IMG/VR virus record: IMGVR_UViG_3300024317_000012
Span: 1-34,330 of that record
DNA length: 34,330 bases
Origin: a virus
Reading direction: 5' to 3' (one strand)
In this document: positions 21,221-27,672 of the stretch, one piece after another
How positions within the stretch are numbered: the stretch's first letter is position 1
Layout: each line of letters starts with the position of its first letter
Notes under the pieces: model-generated
Database searches by the model: none
Seen by the model: the letters and a program-made list of their open reading frames with translations, nothing else
What the model was told of the DNA's origin: nothing
Translations under genes and position numbers: made by a program

Positions 21221-21497
21221 CGATGCCCAACACCCGGTTGGCTTCCTCGATCGTATAGACGACGTGAACCTCGACTCCCGCCGCCCGCAGTTCCTGGTGA
21301 CGCAGTTGTTGCTGTGCCGATAGCCGCCCACCCGGCCGCTTCCACTCGACCAGCACCACCCGACCACCTCGCGCATAGAACCGGTCGGGAAACCCACCCC
21401 TGCTGGTCTTCTCAATCTTCTCAACAACCCAACCGGCCATCGTCGCTATCTGCCGATGCCGCCGCTCTATGTCACTTTCAAGTTGTCTGCGGTTCAT
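21213..21497 (-). CDS. VRR-NUC domain nuclease
   Basis: 94 aa, a complete stand-alone VRR-NUC. The PD-(D/E)XK core is visible: Glu7 in ESDI, GGFPDRF with Asp38, EWK with Glu51 and Lys53, then the conserved Gln in LSAQQQLRHQEL. GAGGGAGG lies seven bases before the ATG, inside the preceding HNH gene, with 20 bases of overlap. Phages often pair this nuclease with a SNF2 helicase, as here. Such enzymes cut Holliday junctions or other branched DNA (known of the family). Confidence 0.93.
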   Translation of the reverse strand: MNRRQLESDIERRHRQIATMAGWVVEKIEKTSRGGFPDRFYARGGRVVLVEWKRPGGRLSAQQQLRHQELRAAGVEVHVVYTIEEANRVLGIDA

Positions 21498-21960
21498 AAC
21501 GATGCCTCCCTCTGTTCGGAGGATCGAACAACCGCGATGCGGGCCATCCTACGTCTACACGATATTTAATAGTAGCAGCCAAAAGAGAACTATATTCTGC
21601 CGCCTCAGAGAGCGACATCAAGCCTATCGGCGTATCTACATAACGGTTGTTACGCCTATTCCTGGCCTGAACCTTCCAAGATGCCCATTCACAGTTTTCT
21701 TTACTATAACCAAGAGCATTGTCTATACGCTCTAAGGTAAGCCCTGTTTTATACGTCGGCCACATATCATGAAAGAAAGTTTCAAAGTTATACCAAGCTG
21801 CACAAACATTTATACCCCGCGCACCGTAATCCTTAAACGCATAGTGAGACTTCCGATAGCAACGTGCGTGCATAGATGCCCAAACAGCATACATCGGATG
21901 CTTAGACATCCCATGCACAGGGGGTCTTCCGCCCTGATCTCCACCATGTCGTCCAGCCAT
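21478..21960 (-). CDS. Free-standing HNH-type (homing) endonuclease
   Basis: 160 aa. It has the pattern of phage HNH/AP2-related homing endonucleases: HPMYAVWASMHARCY (21-35), FKDYGARGINVCAAW (42-56), the nuclease core LERIDNALGYSKENCEW (76-92), a basic QARNRRNN, and a C-terminal NUMOD-like helix-turn-helix (MSLSEAAEYSSLLAATIKYR). It is richer in A/T and rare codons than its neighbours and sits between the methyltransferase and VRR-NUC genes. It overlaps the latter by 20 bases, so it carries the VRR-NUC ribosome binding site. This is consistent with a mobile gene that joined the operon. The same family occurs a second time in the window, inside the polymerase intein. Confidence 0.85.
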   Translation of the reverse strand: MAGRHGGDQGGRPPVHGMSKHPMYAVWASMHARCYRKSHYAFKDYGARGINVCAAWYNFETFFHDMWPTYKTGLTLERIDNALGYSKENCEWASWKVQARNRRNNRYVDTPIGLMSLSEAAEYSSLLAATIKYRVDVGWPASRLFDPPNRGRHRYEPQTT

Positions 21961-21990: not shown

Positions 21991-22584
21991 TCATCTCCAA
22001 CCCTCAACCACTACCCGTAACCGCTGTAACGCCGCCGACAGACCGTGCGGGTAGTCCCGCCCCCAGCCATCCCAACCGGGCCACGCCCTGGTGGCGAACA
22101 ACTCAATGTACGGCCCCGCCACCAGACGCTCGATCCGCTTGTACGCTTCATCCGGTTTACGACTGTGCTCCCGGCGAGGCTCGCGGATCATCTGGCGCAC
22201 GCCCTTGTCCAACCGGCGCGGCGATCCCCTGGTGAACAGCAGACAGGACTCGCATTCTTTACGGGTCCAAAAGCCCATACCCATCTTGGCTTTGTCCCAC
22301 TCAAACGCCCTGGACTTATATTTAAAGCCCCACGCCTTCCCGACCTCGATACAGGCATCCAAGAGGGGATCGACCACCCAGAGGAACAGGGCGCAGTCGG
22401 GCTTTGCCAGATCGGCAACCGGCAGGGCGGCAAGGTCGCTGATCGACATCACCGGGTACGGCTCGAACTCGGTACGGTGCGGGGTCGTATCGTCGCCGCC
22501 GTAGGTCCGGAACGACCAGGGCGGGTCCGCGAGTATGGCCCCGTAGTTGCCCAGCGGAAGCCCCTGGAAGGGGTGTTCGCTCAC
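21991..22584 (-). CDS. MT-A70 family N6-adenine DNA methyltransferase
   Basis: 197 aa, GTG start overlapping the previous stop by 4 bases. The catalytic DPPW is at residues 20-23 (AILADPPWSFRTYGG). FLWVVDPLLDACIEV and the C-terminal VAGPYIELFATRAWPGWDGWG segment are standard for the phage branch of MT-A70, including the GYVEL/PYIELFAR-type S-adenosylmethionine site. It probably protects phage DNA from host restriction by methylating adenines. No cognate restriction enzyme is adjacent, so it is taken to be an orphan enzyme. Confidence 0.94.
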   Translation of the reverse strand: MSEHPFQGLPLGNYGAILADPPWSFRTYGGDDTTPHRTEFEPYPVMSISDLAALPVADLAKPDCALFLWVVDPLLDACIEVGKAWGFKYKSRAFEWDKAKMGMGFWTRKECESCLLFTRGSPRRLDKGVRQMIREPRREHSRKPDEAYKRIERLVAGPYIELFATRAWPGWDGWGRDYPHGLSAALQRLRVVVEGWR

Positions 22585-22856
22585 CGCACCTTCACCATAC
22601 CCTCAATCGTTCCGGTCAACCGGCGAACGGCCCCGGTCAAGTACCACATCTCCTCCTGTAGACTGTCGCCCTGACCAACCTTCCATGGGCCATCCGGGTG
22701 ACCGCTGGCTTCCAGCATGGACAGGATGACCGACGCCTGTTCTGGTGTGATATGCGACACACTCCAGCCTTTCTCATCCCGGCGGCGAACCGACATCTGC
22801 CAGCCTTTGCCGGGGTTCTCGAACAAGGTGAACCCGCTAATCTGCGGTTGCCGCAT
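22581..22856 (-). CDS. Small hypothetical protein (91 aa)
   Basis: Started at the ATG at 22856 (MRQPQISGFTLFENPGKGW), preceded by GGAG seven bases upstream; a TTG at 22874 would add six residues. The first half is a beta sheet with an aromatic pair (GWQMSVRRRDEKGWSVSHI), the second half helical (PEQASVILSMLEA). It overlaps the preceding gene by 20 bases and the methyltransferase by 4. Function not recognised. Confidence 0.6.
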   Translation of the reverse strand: MRQPQISGFTLFENPGKGWQMSVRRRDEKGWSVSHITPEQASVILSMLEASGHPDGPWKVGQGDSLQEEMWYLTGAVRRLTGTIEGMVKVR

Positions 22857-23025
22857 TTCGCAACTCCGCTTCAAGGGTAGCGATCACCTCGTCACGCTTA
22901 CCTAATGCCTTCGCGATGTCCTCGATGATCTGTAACTGTCGCAACGACAGTGTCGCGGTGTCAGGCATCTCACTGAACCCGTAAATTTTGGCGGCTTCCA
23001 ATCGCCTCCCGGCGTCACCTGTCAT
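22837..23025 (-). CDS. Small helical hypothetical protein (62 aa)
   Basis: The ATG overlaps the previous stop by 4 bases (ATGA). The sequence is almost entirely helical: RRLEAAKIYGF, then TLSLRQLQIIEDIAKALGKRD, then VIATLEAELRNAA, with leucine spacing that suggests a coiled coil. No domain is recognised. Tight coupling on both sides supports translation. Confidence 0.55.
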   Translation of the reverse strand: MTGDAGRRLEAAKIYGFSEMPDTATLSLRQLQIIEDIAKALGKRDEVIATLEAELRNAATAD

Positions 23026-23591
23026 GCTTGGCTCCCTTCCAATGCGTCAAGCCGGCGGGTTGCGTTGCCGCGCTCCCGGATGCGGGCAACGATTGGCTTC
23101 AACAAAGGTGATAGATTGATAGTCGTCCGGGTGATTGGCAGCCAGGGCGAGGCCAGATCGGTAAACAGCTTCAGCGTCTCGTCCATATTGTAGCAAAAAC
23201 TTCGAACGCGACGCTGGCTGGTCTGATCGTTCCGCAGCGAATAGATTTGCCAGATCCACCACTCATCGTTTGCGGTGCCGTAGAGCGCGTGCGTGATCGG
23301 ATGAAACGCCCTGGCGACCTGTTCGGGCTGCCATACATAGAGGCCGGTTGCTGCGGCTCCCAGGACATCCCGCTTGGCACCAAGGGCGTCGAACAACCCA
23401 GACATGGCGCTGAACGCAGCGATATCCGATGGCGCGGAAAGATTTGAAGCAGTCAGCCCGCTTTTCAGATGACCGCGTACCTGTATCCAGCGTTCCCGCT
23501 GAAAATTGCGGAGACGATTGCCCGACAACCCAGTGATCCGGACTACTTGATGATTTTCAAAAAGCTGTTCTTCAGGGTTTTTATACAGCAT
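23022..23591 (-). CDS. Hypothetical protein with N-terminal MerR-like helix-turn-helix
   Basis: 189 aa with GAGG before the ATG. Residues 13-40 (HQVVRITGLSGNRLRNFQRE...QVRG) resemble a MerR/excisionase-type winged helix: a VxxITGLS helix, then a recognition helix. The rest (FSAMSGLFDALGAKRD, WQPEQVARAF, ASPWLPITRTTINLSPLLKPI) is mixed helix/strand and matches nothing I recognise. It could be a regulator. It is first in a run of four small, tightly overlapping genes downstream of the polymerase. Confidence 0.6.
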   Translation of the reverse strand: MLYKNPEEQLFENHQVVRITGLSGNRLRNFQRERWIQVRGHLKSGLTASNLSAPSDIAAFSAMSGLFDALGAKRDVLGAAATGLYVWQPEQVARAFHPITHALYGTANDEWWIWQIYSLRNDQTSQRRVRSFCYNMDETLKLFTDLASPWLPITRTTINLSPLLKPIVARIRERGNATRRLDALEGSQA

Positions 23592-23694
23592 AGGGCTACC
23601 TCACGCTGCCTCGACGATATCGTGCCATTTCACTCCCTGGTGATCACTTACGATGTCTTTCAGGATCTTTGTACGGCATCAATTCCACCCCGTG
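23592..23694 (-). other. Polymerase-to-regulator spacer without a supported gene
   Basis: A 103-base spacer in an otherwise overlapping operon. It holds an 11-codon reading frame (MPYKDPERHRK) after GGGGTGG that resembles the first residues of some phage HNH proteins but stops at once. It is listed only because the spacer is unusually long here. Confidence 0.35.
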
Positions 23695-26600
23695 CTACTT
23701 GCGATAAAACGGGGCAGACCACCCGGCCGCGTTAAGCGGGAACCCCGGTGCCCAGGCGATCGGGGCACTCATCAACTCCCGCATCCGCTCCAAGGTGTAG
23801 TAGTTGTCCCCGATCGGCGTGACCGCTATCGCCTCGTCATGCGAGTGACCGACGATCTTGAAGCCGGCCTCATGGAGACGCTGCAAACCCACCTTCAAGA
23901 TGTCACGGGTGAGGGATTGTACAATGTTTTCAGTGCACACGCCTCCATGTGAGGGGATCACCTCCCACTTCGTGGTCCCCTGCTTCCGGCCCATATAGCC
24001 GAACACCACTCGTTCGATGTAATAAGGCTCATCGACCTTCGACCAGCCGACAGAAGTCTTCTCCCACTCAATCTTGATCGAACGCTTAACGTATTGCGGC
24101 CGGTAGTAATAGATGAGCCGTCCACTGGGGAGGCGGATCGTCAGGTATGGCTTGCGGTAGTCGAACTGGAGGTAGCCAAAGTCGTACGGACGCTGCGTCT
24201 GCATCGTGTACCGGATGGCATCCTCGCAGCCATACCAGAACTGTGGGATCTCGGGATAACCAGAGCGGAAGACCGAGACGGCACGCTCAGCCTGTTCCTC
24301 GCTCATGTCGATACCCATGCCTTCGGCGTATCGCAGCAACCCAGTCTTACTGCCCTCGTTGATCCTGCCGGCAGATAGGCGGTAGCCGCAATTGTGCGCG
24401 ATCACTGGGCCAGCGTTCGTCCACACCATGAAGCGGTTACGCGGCCCGCAGTTCAGGATATCATAGGTACGGACCTCGGCAGCCGGCCTGATCGGCAATG
24501 ATCCGTTCCGGTGACAGCCCCTCCCTAATTTTGCGGGCGACCGTCGATTTATCTTGATAAACCGGCGCATACCGCTCCCAAAACTCAACAGCGCACATCC
24601 GTTGACCTTTGTATTCAATCCAACGGAGGACTTCTTTGTTTCGGCCACTCGGCACAGGTTTAACAAACCTGAGATTACCGATCTCATAGTTTCCGTTATT
24701 GTCGATACGGTCGATCCAAAGCTGCGGACCGTCTGCACCGGGCAACGTGAGGCAATAACCGACGAACTCGTAGACATCGACGAACTTGCAACAGATACCA
24801 CGCCCCTCATACCGATGTGCGCCCACCCCCACACCTCGGCACCGGGAGCAAATCGCATAATACCTGTTCGCGAGACGATCGATGGTTTGGCGAGGAACTT
24901 CAAAACGTTCATAAACACCATTCTTTGCTCGGCGAATACGTTCATTGGCGCAATAGACGCAACTTTTAGTCTTACCCCGCTCCAAATTTTGCGCGTAAAG
25001 GATTTTAATTTCTCCACATCCCGCACACCGGCAGCGGTAATACAGTGCTCCTCGCTCCAGCCGAACGTGCGAGAGAACATGCCATTCGCCGAAGCAATAG
25101 CCTGCTTCTCTAAGCGGGTATTGCGAGACACGTCCAAAACGGGGCACCAATCATCTCCACACAATATCTCGTGATCCGGCGTCACGCTCACCCCGTTGAA
25201 ATCAATAACAGCCTTTACACCTTGATCGACAACACCATCATGAGAGACAAAATCGACCCCATCGAACACTAAATCAGCCTTGCGGATACAGCTAATCGGC
25301 ACCCAACCACGGGCGATAAAAACGAGCGTATCAGCCGAAAAACAGCCCAACGTGGGCGGCTTACAGATGTTCCGCTCTGCCCTGGTCACCTCGTCATACG
25401 GCTTCTCGAAAAAGAGGGTGGCAAAGTCCTTGTATGGGTCTTTACCCGACCGGAAGACATCCAACAGGCGAGGGCACTTCGCCACCCAGCCAAGACCGGC
25501 GGATTCCACTGATGAGTAATCACAGACAGTGAACTGGTGCCCCTCCGGTGCGCGGAACATCGACCGCATGGCCCCGGAGAAGGCGTCCATCGGCTCGTTT
25601 ACGAAAAGCTCGAACCCGTCGTAGTCACCCTGCCGGATCAGATTGGTAGCCAGCGTCAGCCGCTCGTCACCGTCCTCCGGATCGAACATCTTCGGCGTTC
25701 TGACCATGTTCTGCGGCTGCACGTTACGGCCGGCGAACCGGCCGGTGCGAGACGCCCCGGCAAACTGGTACATAAAGCGCACCCGGTCACCGGGTCCAAC
25801 AGTCCGATCGGCGGCATCGGCCTTGCTGATGCTGGTCTTACTGACCAGTAACCGGCACTCAAGGATGCGGACGCACTCATCTGTGAGAAGGCCACCCTCA
25901 TGCCGGTGCCGCGCCAGCGCCTTAGCCACAAACTCCTTCTGGAGGTTGGGGTACGGATAACCTTGACCCCTTACCCACGGCAGAAGCTGCGCCACCGAAA
26001 GTGGGTTGGACAGCCCCGTGATCTCTCTCATCTCGGCGGCCAATTCCGCCTTCCGGCGAGCCGCCATCCACATCACATTGCTGACAAACTGCTTATCCAA
26101 CGGGACGCCCCGATCGTTGATCATCTGGTCGAGTTCGTAGAACTGCCACTCGTCCTCGGGGACCGGGTATCCGATCAGTCGCCGCTTGACCGCTTCCTCG
26201 GTCAACACATCCTGCTGGTTGTACCGGACGAACTCTTCCCACAGGTCGGGATCGGTGTCCCAGTTGCGCCAGACATGCGGCTGATTCGTAGTCGGCTTCT
26301 GCGGCACGCTGAACACCCGGATCAGATCGTCACCGGTCTTAAACTTGCGGCTCTCAAGGGGCAGGCCAACCTGTTTACCGATCTCGCCAAGCCCCCCGGT
26401 GAACGATTGCATGAAGGCGAGAACCATCGTGCAACGCCAGTTCCGAATCGGTGTCGGTATCTTCAGCACACGGCGGGTGATCACCCGCTCGAACTGGGCA
26501 TTAAACGCCCACCGCTCGACTTCAGGGTCTACCAGGGCTTCCCGTAGGTCAGAGGGAAAGGGTGCCCTGTGGCCCTCCCAGTGCCGCAGGGGACCGTCAT

Positions 26601-26748
26601 TGATCCGGTAGGCCGCCATCAATACCCGGCAACTCGGTGCGGCCGAGTACCTGTCCAACCCAACCTTGCGGAGATCGAGTTCGCACGCCGTCTCGTAGTC
26701 GAGGTGAAGCGTGTCCTTGGTTGGCCTGTAGTAAGAGTCGAATGGCAT
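23695..26748 (-). CDS. Family A DNA polymerase (PolA) interrupted by an intein
   Basis: 1017-aa precursor from the ATG at 26748 (AGGA eight bases upstream), 699 aa after splicing. A 3'-5' exonuclease domain is present: Exo I Asp17/Glu19 (LDYET), Exo II Asn83...Glu87 (NAQFE), Exo III Tyr176/Asp180 (YNQQD). The polymerase domain has motif A Asp410 (VCDYSSVES), the O-helix Arg459, Lys463, Leu467 and, across the intein, Tyr789 (R-x3-K-x3-L-x3-Y as in E. coli Pol I R754/K758/F762/Y766), and motif C HDE (GHSHDEAIAV). The intein lies between Gly468 and Cys787, inside the O-helix. No 5'-3' exonuclease domain is seen. This is the phage replicative polymerase. Confidence 0.95.
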   Translation of the reverse strand: MPFDSYYRPTKDTLHLDYETACELDLRKVGLDRYSAAPSCRVLMAAYRINDGPLRHWEGHRAPFPSDLREALVDPEVERWAFNAQFERVITRRVLKIPTPIRNWRCTMVLAFMQSFTGGLGEIGKQVGLPLESRKFKTGDDLIRVFSVPQKPTTNQPHVWRNWDTDPDLWEEFVRYNQQDVLTEEAVKRRLIGYPVPEDEWQFYELDQMINDRGVPLDKQFVSNVMWMAARRKAELAAEMREITGLSNPLSVAQLLPWVRGQGYPYPNLQKEFVAKALARHRHEGGLLTDECVRILECRLLVSKTSISKADAADRTVGPGDRVRFMYQFAGASRTGRFAGRNVQPQNMVRTPKMFDPEDGDERLTLATNLIRQGDYDGFELFVNEPMDAFSGAMRSMFRAPEGHQFTVCDYSSVESAGLGWVAKCPRLLDVFRSGKDPYKDFATLFFEKPYDEVTRAERNICKPPTLGCFSADTLVFIARGWVPISCIRKADLVFDGVDFVSHDGVVDQGVKAVIDFNGVSVTPDHEILCGDDWCPVLDVSRNTRLEKQAIASANGMFSRTFGWSEEHCITAAGVRDVEKLKSFTRKIWSGVRLKVASIAPMNVFAEQRMVFMNVLKFLAKPSIVSRTGIMRFAPGAEVWGWAHIGMRGVVSVASSSMSTSSSVIASRCPVQTVRSFGSTVSTITETMRSVISGLLNLCRVAETKKSSVGLNTKVNGCALLSFGSGMRRFIKINRRSPAKLGRGCHRNGSLPIRPAAEVRTYDILNCGPRNRFMVWTNAGPVIAHNCGYRLSAGRINEGSKTGLLRYAEGMGIDMSEEQAERAVSVFRSGYPEIPQFWYGCEDAIRYTMQTQRPYDFGYLQFDYRKPYLTIRLPSGRLIYYYRPQYVKRSIKIEWEKTSVGWSKVDEPYYIERVVFGYMGRKQGTTKWEVIPSHGGVCTENIVQSLTRDILKVGLQRLHEAGFKIVGHSHDEAIAVTPIGDNYYTLERMRELMSAPIAWAPGFPLNAAGWSAPFYRK
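24391..25344 (-). mobile_element. Intein in polymerase motif B (318 aa)
   Basis: Residues 469-786 of the precursor. Block A begins with Cys1 (CFSADTLVFIARGWVPI) followed by RKADLVFDG. Block B is SVTPDHEILCGDDW at intein residues about 54-67, with the conserved Thr and His. Block F is TYDILNCGPRNRF and block G is VIAHN followed by extein Cys+1. All splicing residues (Cys1, block B His, penultimate His, terminal Asn, Cys+1) are intact. Removal rejoins PPTLG and CGYRLS, restoring the O-helix. The central 230 residues have no endonuclease motif in this frame; the endonuclease is in another frame. Confidence 0.93.
24461..25147 (-). CDS. HNH homing endonuclease encoded out of frame inside the intein
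   Basis: 228 aa from a GTG at 25147 with GGAG (25155-25158) seven bases upstream; a TTG one codon earlier directly follows an in-frame TGA. In this frame the protein has a plausible N-terminus (YCFGEWHVLSHVR), a zinc ribbon (CRCAGC...CVYC), ICSRCRGVGVGAHRYEGRGIC, the HNH core WIDRIDNNGNYEIGNLRF (145-162) and a C-terminal NUMOD-like helix (CAVEFWERYAPVYQDKSTVARKI). The reading frame is shifted relative to the polymerase/intein frame, which itself stays open. It begins at block B and ends on the TAT GAT codons of block F. It belongs to the same family as the 160-aa endonuclease further downstream. Expression from its own start is inferred. Confidence 0.82.
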   Translation of the reverse strand: MPRFGRVSQYPLREAGYCFGEWHVLSHVRLERGALYYRCRCAGCGEIKILYAQNLERGKTKSCVYCANERIRRAKNGVYERFEVPRQTIDRLANRYYAICSRCRGVGVGAHRYEGRGICCKFVDVYEFVGYCLTLPGADGPQLWIDRIDNNGNYEIGNLRFVKPVPSGRNKEVLRWIEYKGQRMCAVEFWERYAPVYQDKSTVARKIREGLSPERIIADQAGCRGPYL

Positions 26749-26767
26749 TAGGGGTTCCTGATAGAGT

Positions 26768-26797
26768 GCAACCGATACCGCAGGACCGCTCGGTTGC
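26768..26797. other. Hairpin in the polymerase leader (proximal)
   Basis: An 8-bp perfect inverted repeat GCAACCGA / TCGGTTGC with a 14-base loop, ending about 20 bases upstream of the polymerase ATG. With the hairpin at 26814-26850 it makes a double-hairpin leader in the only sizeable gap on this side of the operon. Confidence 0.6.
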
Positions 26798-26813
26798 CAC
26801 ACGGCACCCGCAC

Positions 26814-26850
26814 TGAACCGGTAGTTACGCTCCCCCTAACCACCGGTTCA
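26814..26850. other. Strong hairpin between SSB and polymerase genes (distal)
   Basis: TGAACCGGT-a-GTTA pairs with TAAC-c-ACCGGTTCA: 13 base pairs with one A/C mismatch and a 9-base loop. It lies just after the SSB-like stop at 26859. No T-run follows on the minus strand. Candidate attenuator, processing site or translational operator of the polymerase. Confidence 0.7.
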
Positions 26851-26858
26851 ATGCCTGC

Positions 26859-27509
26859 CTACAGACCTTCCAGATCGTCAAAGCCACTGTCGTCTTCGGC
26901 CAGAACCTCCAACGTGTCATCGACCACGTCATCGGTAATGCGACCGTCCCCGACAATCCGCTCGCCATCACGCACAAACTGGATGGCGATCAGGTTGGCA
27001 TTGACCTTCTTGCCGTTCGTATTGCTCTGCCACCACGGCTTGATAAACATGTTCACCCAGCAACCGGGATAGAACACCTCGACGGCATCCTGCGGCTTGA
27101 TGATCCTCGCCCGACCGGTGACCGGGTCCGTACCGCGACCCCTCAAAGCGGGAGGGTTCGTCTCGTTGGTGTGGATCGACCAGTGTCCAGGGAACCCCTT
27201 CCGGTCCTTGCGCTCGTCCCCATCCCGCATAAACCGGTGCATACTAGGCAGATCGGGGTTCTGCTTGGATGCCACGAACCGCTGGATTTCGGATTCCAAC
27301 AGCAACTGCGACCGGCGGTACTTCGGAGCCTTCGGCATCAACCCGATCGCACCGTATGTCGGCCTTGGGTTGGTCCCGTTCGGACCCGCCCACGGCTTGT
27401 CGAGGTGGGGGAAGCTCAACCTCACCTCCTTCACCACGATCGTCCCGTCCGAATACGTGACAACGTAGTCTTCGTTCTTTACGATCTTCCGCTCAATTAC
27501 GTCTGACAT
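26859..27509 (-). CDS. Single-stranded DNA binding protein (DUF2815-type)
   Basis: 216 aa. The family pattern is clear: KEVRLSFPHLDKPW near residue 26, PTYGAIGLMPK, the DLPSMHRFMRDGDERK segment, GHWSIHTNETNPP, FYPGCWVNMFIKPWWQS, and NANLIAIQFVRDGERI. It ends in a strongly acidic tail (DDSGFDDLEGL), as in SSBs that recruit partners by the C-terminus. DUF2815 proteins are phage SSBs. It is encoded directly before the polymerase, with which it should work at the replication fork. Confidence 0.9.
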   Translation of the reverse strand: MSDVIERKIVKNEDYVVTYSDGTIVVKEVRLSFPHLDKPWAGPNGTNPRPTYGAIGLMPKAPKYRRSQLLLESEIQRFVASKQNPDLPSMHRFMRDGDERKDRKGFPGHWSIHTNETNPPALRGRGTDPVTGRARIIKPQDAVEVFYPGCWVNMFIKPWWQSNTNGKKVNANLIAIQFVRDGERIVGDGRITDDVVDDTLEVLAEDDSGFDDLEGL

Positions 27510-27672
27510 CGCCTATTCTCCCGTTGACCGTGCGCCAGATGACCCGCTTACGTCGAACGACAAACCCCTCCTTCGTGTTGTTGCGAAAATGTATCGTCTC
27601 CAACCGCTCCGGACGCGGCAGCGAGCGACGGTAAACCTCGGCCGGTTCCTTGGTCGCATAGACCCTAGCCAT
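27493..27672 (-). CDS. Small basic hypothetical protein (59 aa)
   Basis: An ATG six bases after the preceding stop with AAGG upstream; the TGA overlaps the SSB start by 17 bases. The product (MARVYATKEPAEVYRRSLP..., ending VRRN) is very basic, with a beta-rich centre (IHFRNNTKEGFVVRRKRVIW). It fills the space between two clear genes. It may bind nucleic acid; no family is recognised. Confidence 0.55.
   Translation of the reverse strand: MARVYATKEPAEVYRRSLPRPERLETIHFRNNTKEGFVVRRKRVIWRTVNGRIGDVRRN

Follow-up and report, generated by a model that had tools for sequence, protein, structure and literature searches.

A putative HNH endonuclease gene overprinted out of frame on the intein of a phage family A DNA polymerase

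Inteins are taught as single proteins in which a splicing domain and a homing domain share one frame, and the endonuclease domain of canonical homing inteins is encoded in the frame of the intein. HNH endonucleases may also be encoded by group I introns, as in the case of I-HmuI. In fractured genes, reportedly described by Dassa et al. in 2009, the intein is said to be split, with a free-standing homing endonuclease gene between its halves. The closest precedent for the arrangement described here is the ShiLan element, an out-of-frame HNH gene in a phage DNA methylase gene, for which neither a splicing domain nor a detectable ribosome-binding site was found, and the methylase is presumed to retain the insert (Arsenault, Gosselin, Gogarten 2025, Genes 16:178, PMC11855218).

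The present locus lies in a 34.3-kb virus record, a single viral contig, the whole of which is hereafter called the window. It shares with ShiLan and with gp54/55 of Applejack (PMC12613952) an out-of-frame HNH gene that lies within a phage gene, starts from GTG, and encodes zinc fingers, a host frame free of stops, and a disjunct distribution suggesting homing. Unlike ShiLan, the window and its relatives have intact splicing blocks, a replicative polymerase as host, a detectable Shine–Dalgarno sequence, 121 loci, and two locked frame offsets; the likeness to ShiLan is one of layout, with no HNH-to-HNH sequence comparison behind it. With canonical homing inteins the locus has in common a splicing domain, an endonuclease placed between blocks B and F, and a conserved site in a replication gene, whereas its endonuclease would be made from a cistron of its own in a different frame, and the linker left in the intein frame resembles filler. 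As in fractured genes, the endonuclease gene is autonomous, and the same HNH family occurs in the split forms of two related loci (L031 and L044), but the intein of the window is contiguous and would splice in cis. Group I intron HNH enzymes such as I-HmuI and I-PfoP3I likewise have their ORF within an element that removes itself, phage DNA polymerase genes being among the hosts; here, in contrast, the insert would be removed by protein splicing, so that the host frame must stay open across the endonuclease gene. The sequence-only reading of this DNA had held that no standard description of such an arrangement exists. No intein with an out-of-frame endonuclease was described among the titles and abstracts searched, and the statement needs tempering in view of ShiLan, an out-of-frame HNH precedent without an intein. 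Priority is also unsettled, given a preprint on actinobacteriophage inteins with non-canonical architecture, which may cover inteins with overlapping frames.

Intein and overprinted gene in the window

The family A DNA polymerase gene of the window occupies positions 23695–26802 of the minus strand and encodes a precursor of 1035 residues from a GTG at 26802, or of 1017 residues from an alternative ATG at 26748; the predicted product after splicing has 699 residues. Its exteins are ~50% identical to the DNA polymerase of Pseudomonas phage vB_Pae-SS2019XI, with the intein outside the match, and insert-free homologues were found. The intein (24391–25344, minus strand; 318 residues) is located within the polymerase motif B region (...KPPTLG/C...HN/CGYR...), its Cys1 codon starting from 25344, its His-Asn end lying at 24391, and the codon of the +1 residue, Cys, starting from 24390. 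As had been claimed from the sequence alone, the splicing blocks, namely TPDH (Thr55–His58), TYD, and HN/C, are all present in the polymerase frame, which is continuous through the insert, with no split of the host gene. The residues C1, T55xxH58, D295, R304, and H317-N318 are conserved across 16–19 relatives; C1 and TxxH are present in 66/66 non-redundant loci, and the HN end is invariant in the aligned set. The N-terminal splicing half containing blocks A and B (25141–25344, minus strand) matched an intN profile with an E-value of 3e-33, and the C-terminal half containing blocks F and G (24391–24477, minus strand) matched an intC profile with an E-value of 9e-19, the window itself being among the seeds of both profiles. 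In an AlphaFold2 (AF2) model of the intein frame, these splicing ends are confident (pLDDT 96–98 overall, 97–98 for the N-terminal and ~96 for the C-terminal half), and the linker between them has a pLDDT below 50 and is predicted to be disordered. The intein profile matched structures of the Mtu RecA (PI-MtuI) intein (E = 9e-5), and Foldseek related the fold to the Ssp DnaB, Spirulina DnaX, and Mtu RecA mini-inteins (probability, 0.97–1.0; E, 3e-3 to 0.1). The insert thus passes every intein criterion that could be run, with splicing activity itself remaining an inference, and fails the criterion of a canonical homing intein that the endonuclease be in the intein frame.

The overprinted HNH-type gene (24461–25147, minus strand) encodes 228 residues from a GTG, in frame +2 (= -1) with respect to the polymerase, or 229 residues from an alternative TTG at 25150. 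A GGAG at 25155–25158 on the same strand, a candidate Shine–Dalgarno sequence, lies 7 nt upstream of the GTG at 25147, in agreement with the spacing, separate ORF, and coordinates given in the sequence-only reading. That reading also had the gene ending exactly at block F, which is nearly correct; the TGA stop falls within the TYD codons and hence overlaps the first codons of the block. The third frame across the HNH domain contains 13 stops. The encoded protein matched PHROG 374 "HNH endonuclease" (E = 7e-21) and PHROG 3377 (E = 4e-13), and found no meaningful match in Pfam or NCBIfam. Four putative zinc-ribbon cysteines (C42, C45, C64, and C67; 24950–25027, minus strand) are invariant over 33 relatives, Cys45 being nearly invariant in a second alignment of 32 relatives. 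The HNH-type core, WIDRIDNNGNYEIGNLRFV...RN (24638–24718, minus strand), reads DRID...GNYEIGN in the window, with the pattern DRID...GxYexGN, and contains D147, R148, Y155, G158, and N159, all invariant in two alignments. In canonical HNH enzymes with the beta-beta-alpha-metal motif, a catalytic His serves as the general base. No invariant His that could act as such was found in the two alignments, and Arg148 is invariant at the usual position. The earlier description of a complete HNH endonuclease is therefore upheld by the PHROG profile and the zinc-ribbon cysteines and not by the catalytic residue, and catalysis is assumed from family membership and selection, without cleavage data.

The C-terminal region of the HNH-frame protein (24488–24622, minus strand) is predicted to form a beta-hairpin and helices (strands 177–180 and 183–186; helices 187–197, 201–209, and 214–221), a NUMOD/HTH-like tail by resemblance only. 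The AF2 model of the whole protein, from an alignment in which two phage-database rows were left out, is fairly confident (mean pLDDT, 83). For this protein, Foldseek gave no match at E ≤ 0.001, and a PDB sequence search gave chance matches only. In VIA-align, residues 10–62 retrieved mainly Tudor-like domains and residues 77–169 the HNH enzyme PacI (Z, 4.9), both too weak to lean on.

Distribution of the layout and intein-free alleles

A tblastn search of phage records with the HNH frame gave matches inside genes annotated as "DNA polymerase" or "intein-containing DNA polymerase precursor". The HNH gene is likewise out of frame, and the intein-bearing polymerase uninterrupted, in Salmonella phages LP31 and VT223, Streptococcus phage PhiSdyV1524, and Vibrio phage 97.13. 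Kagunavirus fPoEco01 (L215) has this arrangement too, and the same architecture is found in Escherichia phages and in prophages of sequenced bacteria, the cultured bacterial genomes with this layout including Allobaculum and Erwinia. Seven isolates were checked or fetched directly. The locus set was assembled by scanning viral contigs, polymerases, and bacterial genomes and was sorted by intein-N, intein-C, polymerase, and HNH profiles. It contains 121 copies, the window included, of a nested HNH in one uninterrupted intein-bearing polymerase ORF: 95 from the window, viral contigs, and phages (66 non-redundant at 90%) and 26 from bacterial genomes, possibly including duplicates of viral contigs. 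At none of the 121 loci is the HNH in frame with the intein; it is always at +1 or +2. Where the host gene was checked it encodes a family A polymerase, and the inteins occupy several sites. For loci whose hosts seemed from a weak profile match not to be polymerases, a Pfam scan identified 11/11 scanned ORFs as family A polymerases (L025 and L042, which pair with L023 and L037, were left out of the scan). Two overprinted inteins occur in one polymerase at L051–L053, L058, and L085.

Some loci show further features. Besides its two overprinted HNH inteins, L085 (3–4499) has extra Pfam matches to Hint and HNH_3 that lie in the polymerase frame and point to a third intein of the conventional, in-frame kind. 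At L202 (1808–5414) the C-terminal part of the polymerase shares its frame with the HNH ORF and not with the N-terminal part, through a frameshift or a further insert. The record of Salmonella phage Ent1 annotates the polymerase intein only as "encoding splicing domains", and at L213 (3852–3897) the DNA helicase of this phage is also annotated as an extein, so that an intein is expected there.

Near-identical polymerases without the intein exist, and an exact empty site (RQIGKA/CELGLGY) is found in phage wast where LP31 carries the insert; the polymerase N-extein is present in 402 phage records, as compared with 163 for the LP31 intein DNA. The comparison of the same polymerase site with and without the insertion, which had been proposed as a check, thus yielded relatives with an empty site, a mini-intein, or a split intein. 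Such a pattern of presence and absence is expected of homing and is not proof of it, cleavage and transfer being inferred, and ordinary recombination could partly account for the disjunct distribution.

Selection on the two frames and internal translation starts

In a codon simulation over 66 loci, in which the HNH proteins were fixed and synonymous codons redrawn, 457 stops were expected in the host frame and 0 were seen; in the third frame, 556 were expected and 680 seen, with no depletion. An open host ORF was a condition for entering the simulation set, although only a handful of loci with flanking intein halves fail it (the first inteins of L031 and L044, and L057). For the window alone, a polymerase frame without stops across the HNH domain departs only mildly from expectation (P = 0.04), and its significance rests on the relatives that show it too. 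In free-standing HNH relatives no other frame holds an ORF of comparable span, with a partial exception (L208/L209) based on a 33-residue match; the openness of the host frame is therefore no by-product of the HNH code.

Over 42 pairs, differences at the first, second, and third HNH codon positions number 1932, 1482, and 3501, respectively, and identity in the linker frame is no better than in the third frame. In close pairs, omega for the HNH frame is 0.16–0.27 at sites nonsynonymous in the linker frame, and the low value holds in recent Guernseyvirinae as well as in other close pairs. Omega for the linker is 0.75–1.0 at HNH-nonsynonymous sites and 0.42–0.54 at HNH-synonymous sites; the latter range rests on few changes, so that weak constraint on the linker stays possible. 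Changes creating a stop in the host frame are depleted in close pairs (4 versus 13.2 and 6 versus 21.1 expected), and those creating a stop in the third frame are not. As judged from these substitution patterns, purifying selection acts on the HNH frame (omega about 0.2), and the linker frame of the intein appears to drift near-neutrally apart from purged stops. A comparison of constraint in each frame had also been proposed, with conservation in the intein frame alone as a refutation; conservation sits in the HNH frame. The inference of a separate overprinted HNH gene, with the linker kept open only for completion of the polymerase, is accordingly supported by the omega values and the stop depletion, together with the disordered linker and the start signals described below. 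In L179 (3411–4166), the nested HNH ORF is interrupted by a stop, and the intein-bearing host frame is still open.

Potential start signals were surveyed by counting ATGs from the opening of the HNH ORF to its domain, with out-of-frame ATGs of the exteins as controls and the Shine–Dalgarno sequence placed at 4–12 nt. A 5-mer match was found for 34/103 of the ATGs upstream of the HNH and for 51/1356 of the controls (Fisher p = 1e-19), an enrichment of about ninefold. Among the non-redundant loci, a candidate start has a 5-mer match in 40/66 and a 4-mer match in 55/66; the only start signal of the window itself is its GGAG-GTG. The enrichment favours internal initiation over frameshifting, without being proof of translation.

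Interpretation, rival explanations, and evolutionary history

Based on these results, we interpret the locus as a mobile intein of two cistrons, from which the splicing and homing functions would be translated separately, and assign this reading a probability of roughly 0.88 in the absence of expression, splicing, or cleavage data. One frame would encode a contiguous splicing domain with a filler linker; the ribosome would pass through the insert, and protein splicing would restore the polymerase, so that the insertion is harmless. The DNA between blocks B and F would serve as an independently initiated HNH-type gene in another frame, and its protein, translated from the inferred internal start, may cut intein-free polymerase alleles and drive homing of the whole cassette.

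An error of sequencing or assembly, in which two compensating indels displaced an in-frame HNH domain, had been named at the outset as an outcome that would refute the overprinting; it would restore the textbook form of an intein, and the window is only a single viral contig. The attempted refutation failed, no relative having this HNH in frame, and the same out-of-frame layout recurs in independently sequenced isolates and cultured bacterial genomes with a phylogenetically locked offset; error is therefore refuted as a general explanation, and we give it practically no weight. The alternative of a group I or II intron that carries an endonuclease ORF, in place of an intein, is no more tenable: endonuclease ORFs are common in introns, HNH ones occurring in phage DNA polymerase genes (I-PfoP3I, PMC3428280), but the polymerase frame is open throughout, C1, TxxH, HN, and C/S+1 are conserved, a Hint fold is predicted, and an Rfam scan of positions 22500–27600 detected no intron, group I included, at the gathering threshold.

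The two remaining rivals accept the intein and concern its nested gene. Programmed ribosomal frameshifting, yielding a fusion of the intein N-terminal half with the HNH and no internal initiation, would be consistent with HNH ORFs that open within or just past the N-terminal splicing half and with the loci lacking a recognisable Shine–Dalgarno sequence; we regard it as improbable, because it leaves the enrichment of such sequences before the HNH unaccounted for and the two offsets, +1 and +2, would demand different shifts. It is also conceivable, albeit unlikely, that the nested HNH is left over from a formerly homing endonuclease and is today a relic merely tolerated in the intein, as the broken ORF of L179 and the existence of mini-inteins without an HNH might indicate; against this stand the low omega in close pairs, recent Guernseyvirinae among them, the intact ORF in almost all loci, and the close polymerase relatives with and without the insert.

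The layout of two genes in one stretch recurs in over 100 further phages and prophages, which may alter views on how inteins spread and split. The arrangement sits in common, well-studied phages, the records of which annotate only the polymerase or the intein. If it is confirmed, surveys that read only the intein frame take inteins able to home for inteins whose linker has no function, the endonuclease is expressed independently of splicing, and the origin of split inteins becomes testable, because members of the same HNH family are found inside contiguous inteins, flanked by the halves of split ones, and as free-standing genes. The loci also provide an overlap of genes on the same strand that is unusually well replicated in nature, one frame being constrained and the other needing only to stay open.

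In a tree of the 66 HNH proteins the frame offset changes once, versus a mean of 22 on shuffling, and it changes twice when genome, free-standing, and split members are added; these trees are quick searches with no inferred root, and an intein-domain tree had too few columns for deep order. By this phylogenetic evidence the offset (+1 or +2) is clade-locked. The HNHs of L053, L058, and L102 that sit in inteins at the second site branch among free-standing HNHs (starred 98), next to a second HNH gene of the window (see below). From the offset changes and this grouping, we infer that HNH genes invaded mini-intein loops out of frame in at least two, and probably three, separate events. A wider proposal, which we favour only slightly, is that overprinted inteins are ancient, frame-locked bipartite elements that arose repeatedly by HNH invasion of mini-inteins, are the form in which this HNH family mostly occurs in phage family A polymerases, and provide a route to split inteins and fractured genes once a stop arises in the linker.

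Mini-inteins without an HNH were found as the first intein of L102, in L108 and L122, and as the second intein of L087; those of L108 and L122 are near-identical to the intein of L133 over approximately its first 70 nucleotides. In L122 (3417–6526) the gene directly after the mini-intein polymerase encodes a free-standing HNH from the same family in the broad sense, and the pair could be a case of collaborative homing. A close relationship of this free HNH with the nested HNH of L133 was rejected, the former being only ~33% identical to the second-site set. A split host was seen only at L031, L044, and L093, in each case at the upstream intein. The polymerases of L031 (66–3574) and L044 (2–3390) each carry one split intein with the HNH between its halves, at +1 to the N-terminal and +2 to the C-terminal half, and one contiguous overprinted intein. 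In L093 (555–4989), a GIY-YIG-like gene, assigned by eye, lies between the halves of the split intein, and an overprinted HNH intein is located downstream. Free-standing HNHs of L175 and L190 are placed inside the +1 nested clade, with a polymerase-like fragment just upstream in L175, and are perhaps the result of escape or of a decayed host. The second HNH gene of the window phage, also free-standing (21478–21960, minus strand), is most similar to the nested HNH of L102's second polymerase intein (55% over 102 columns), and possibly gives a picture of the type of gene from which the invading one came.
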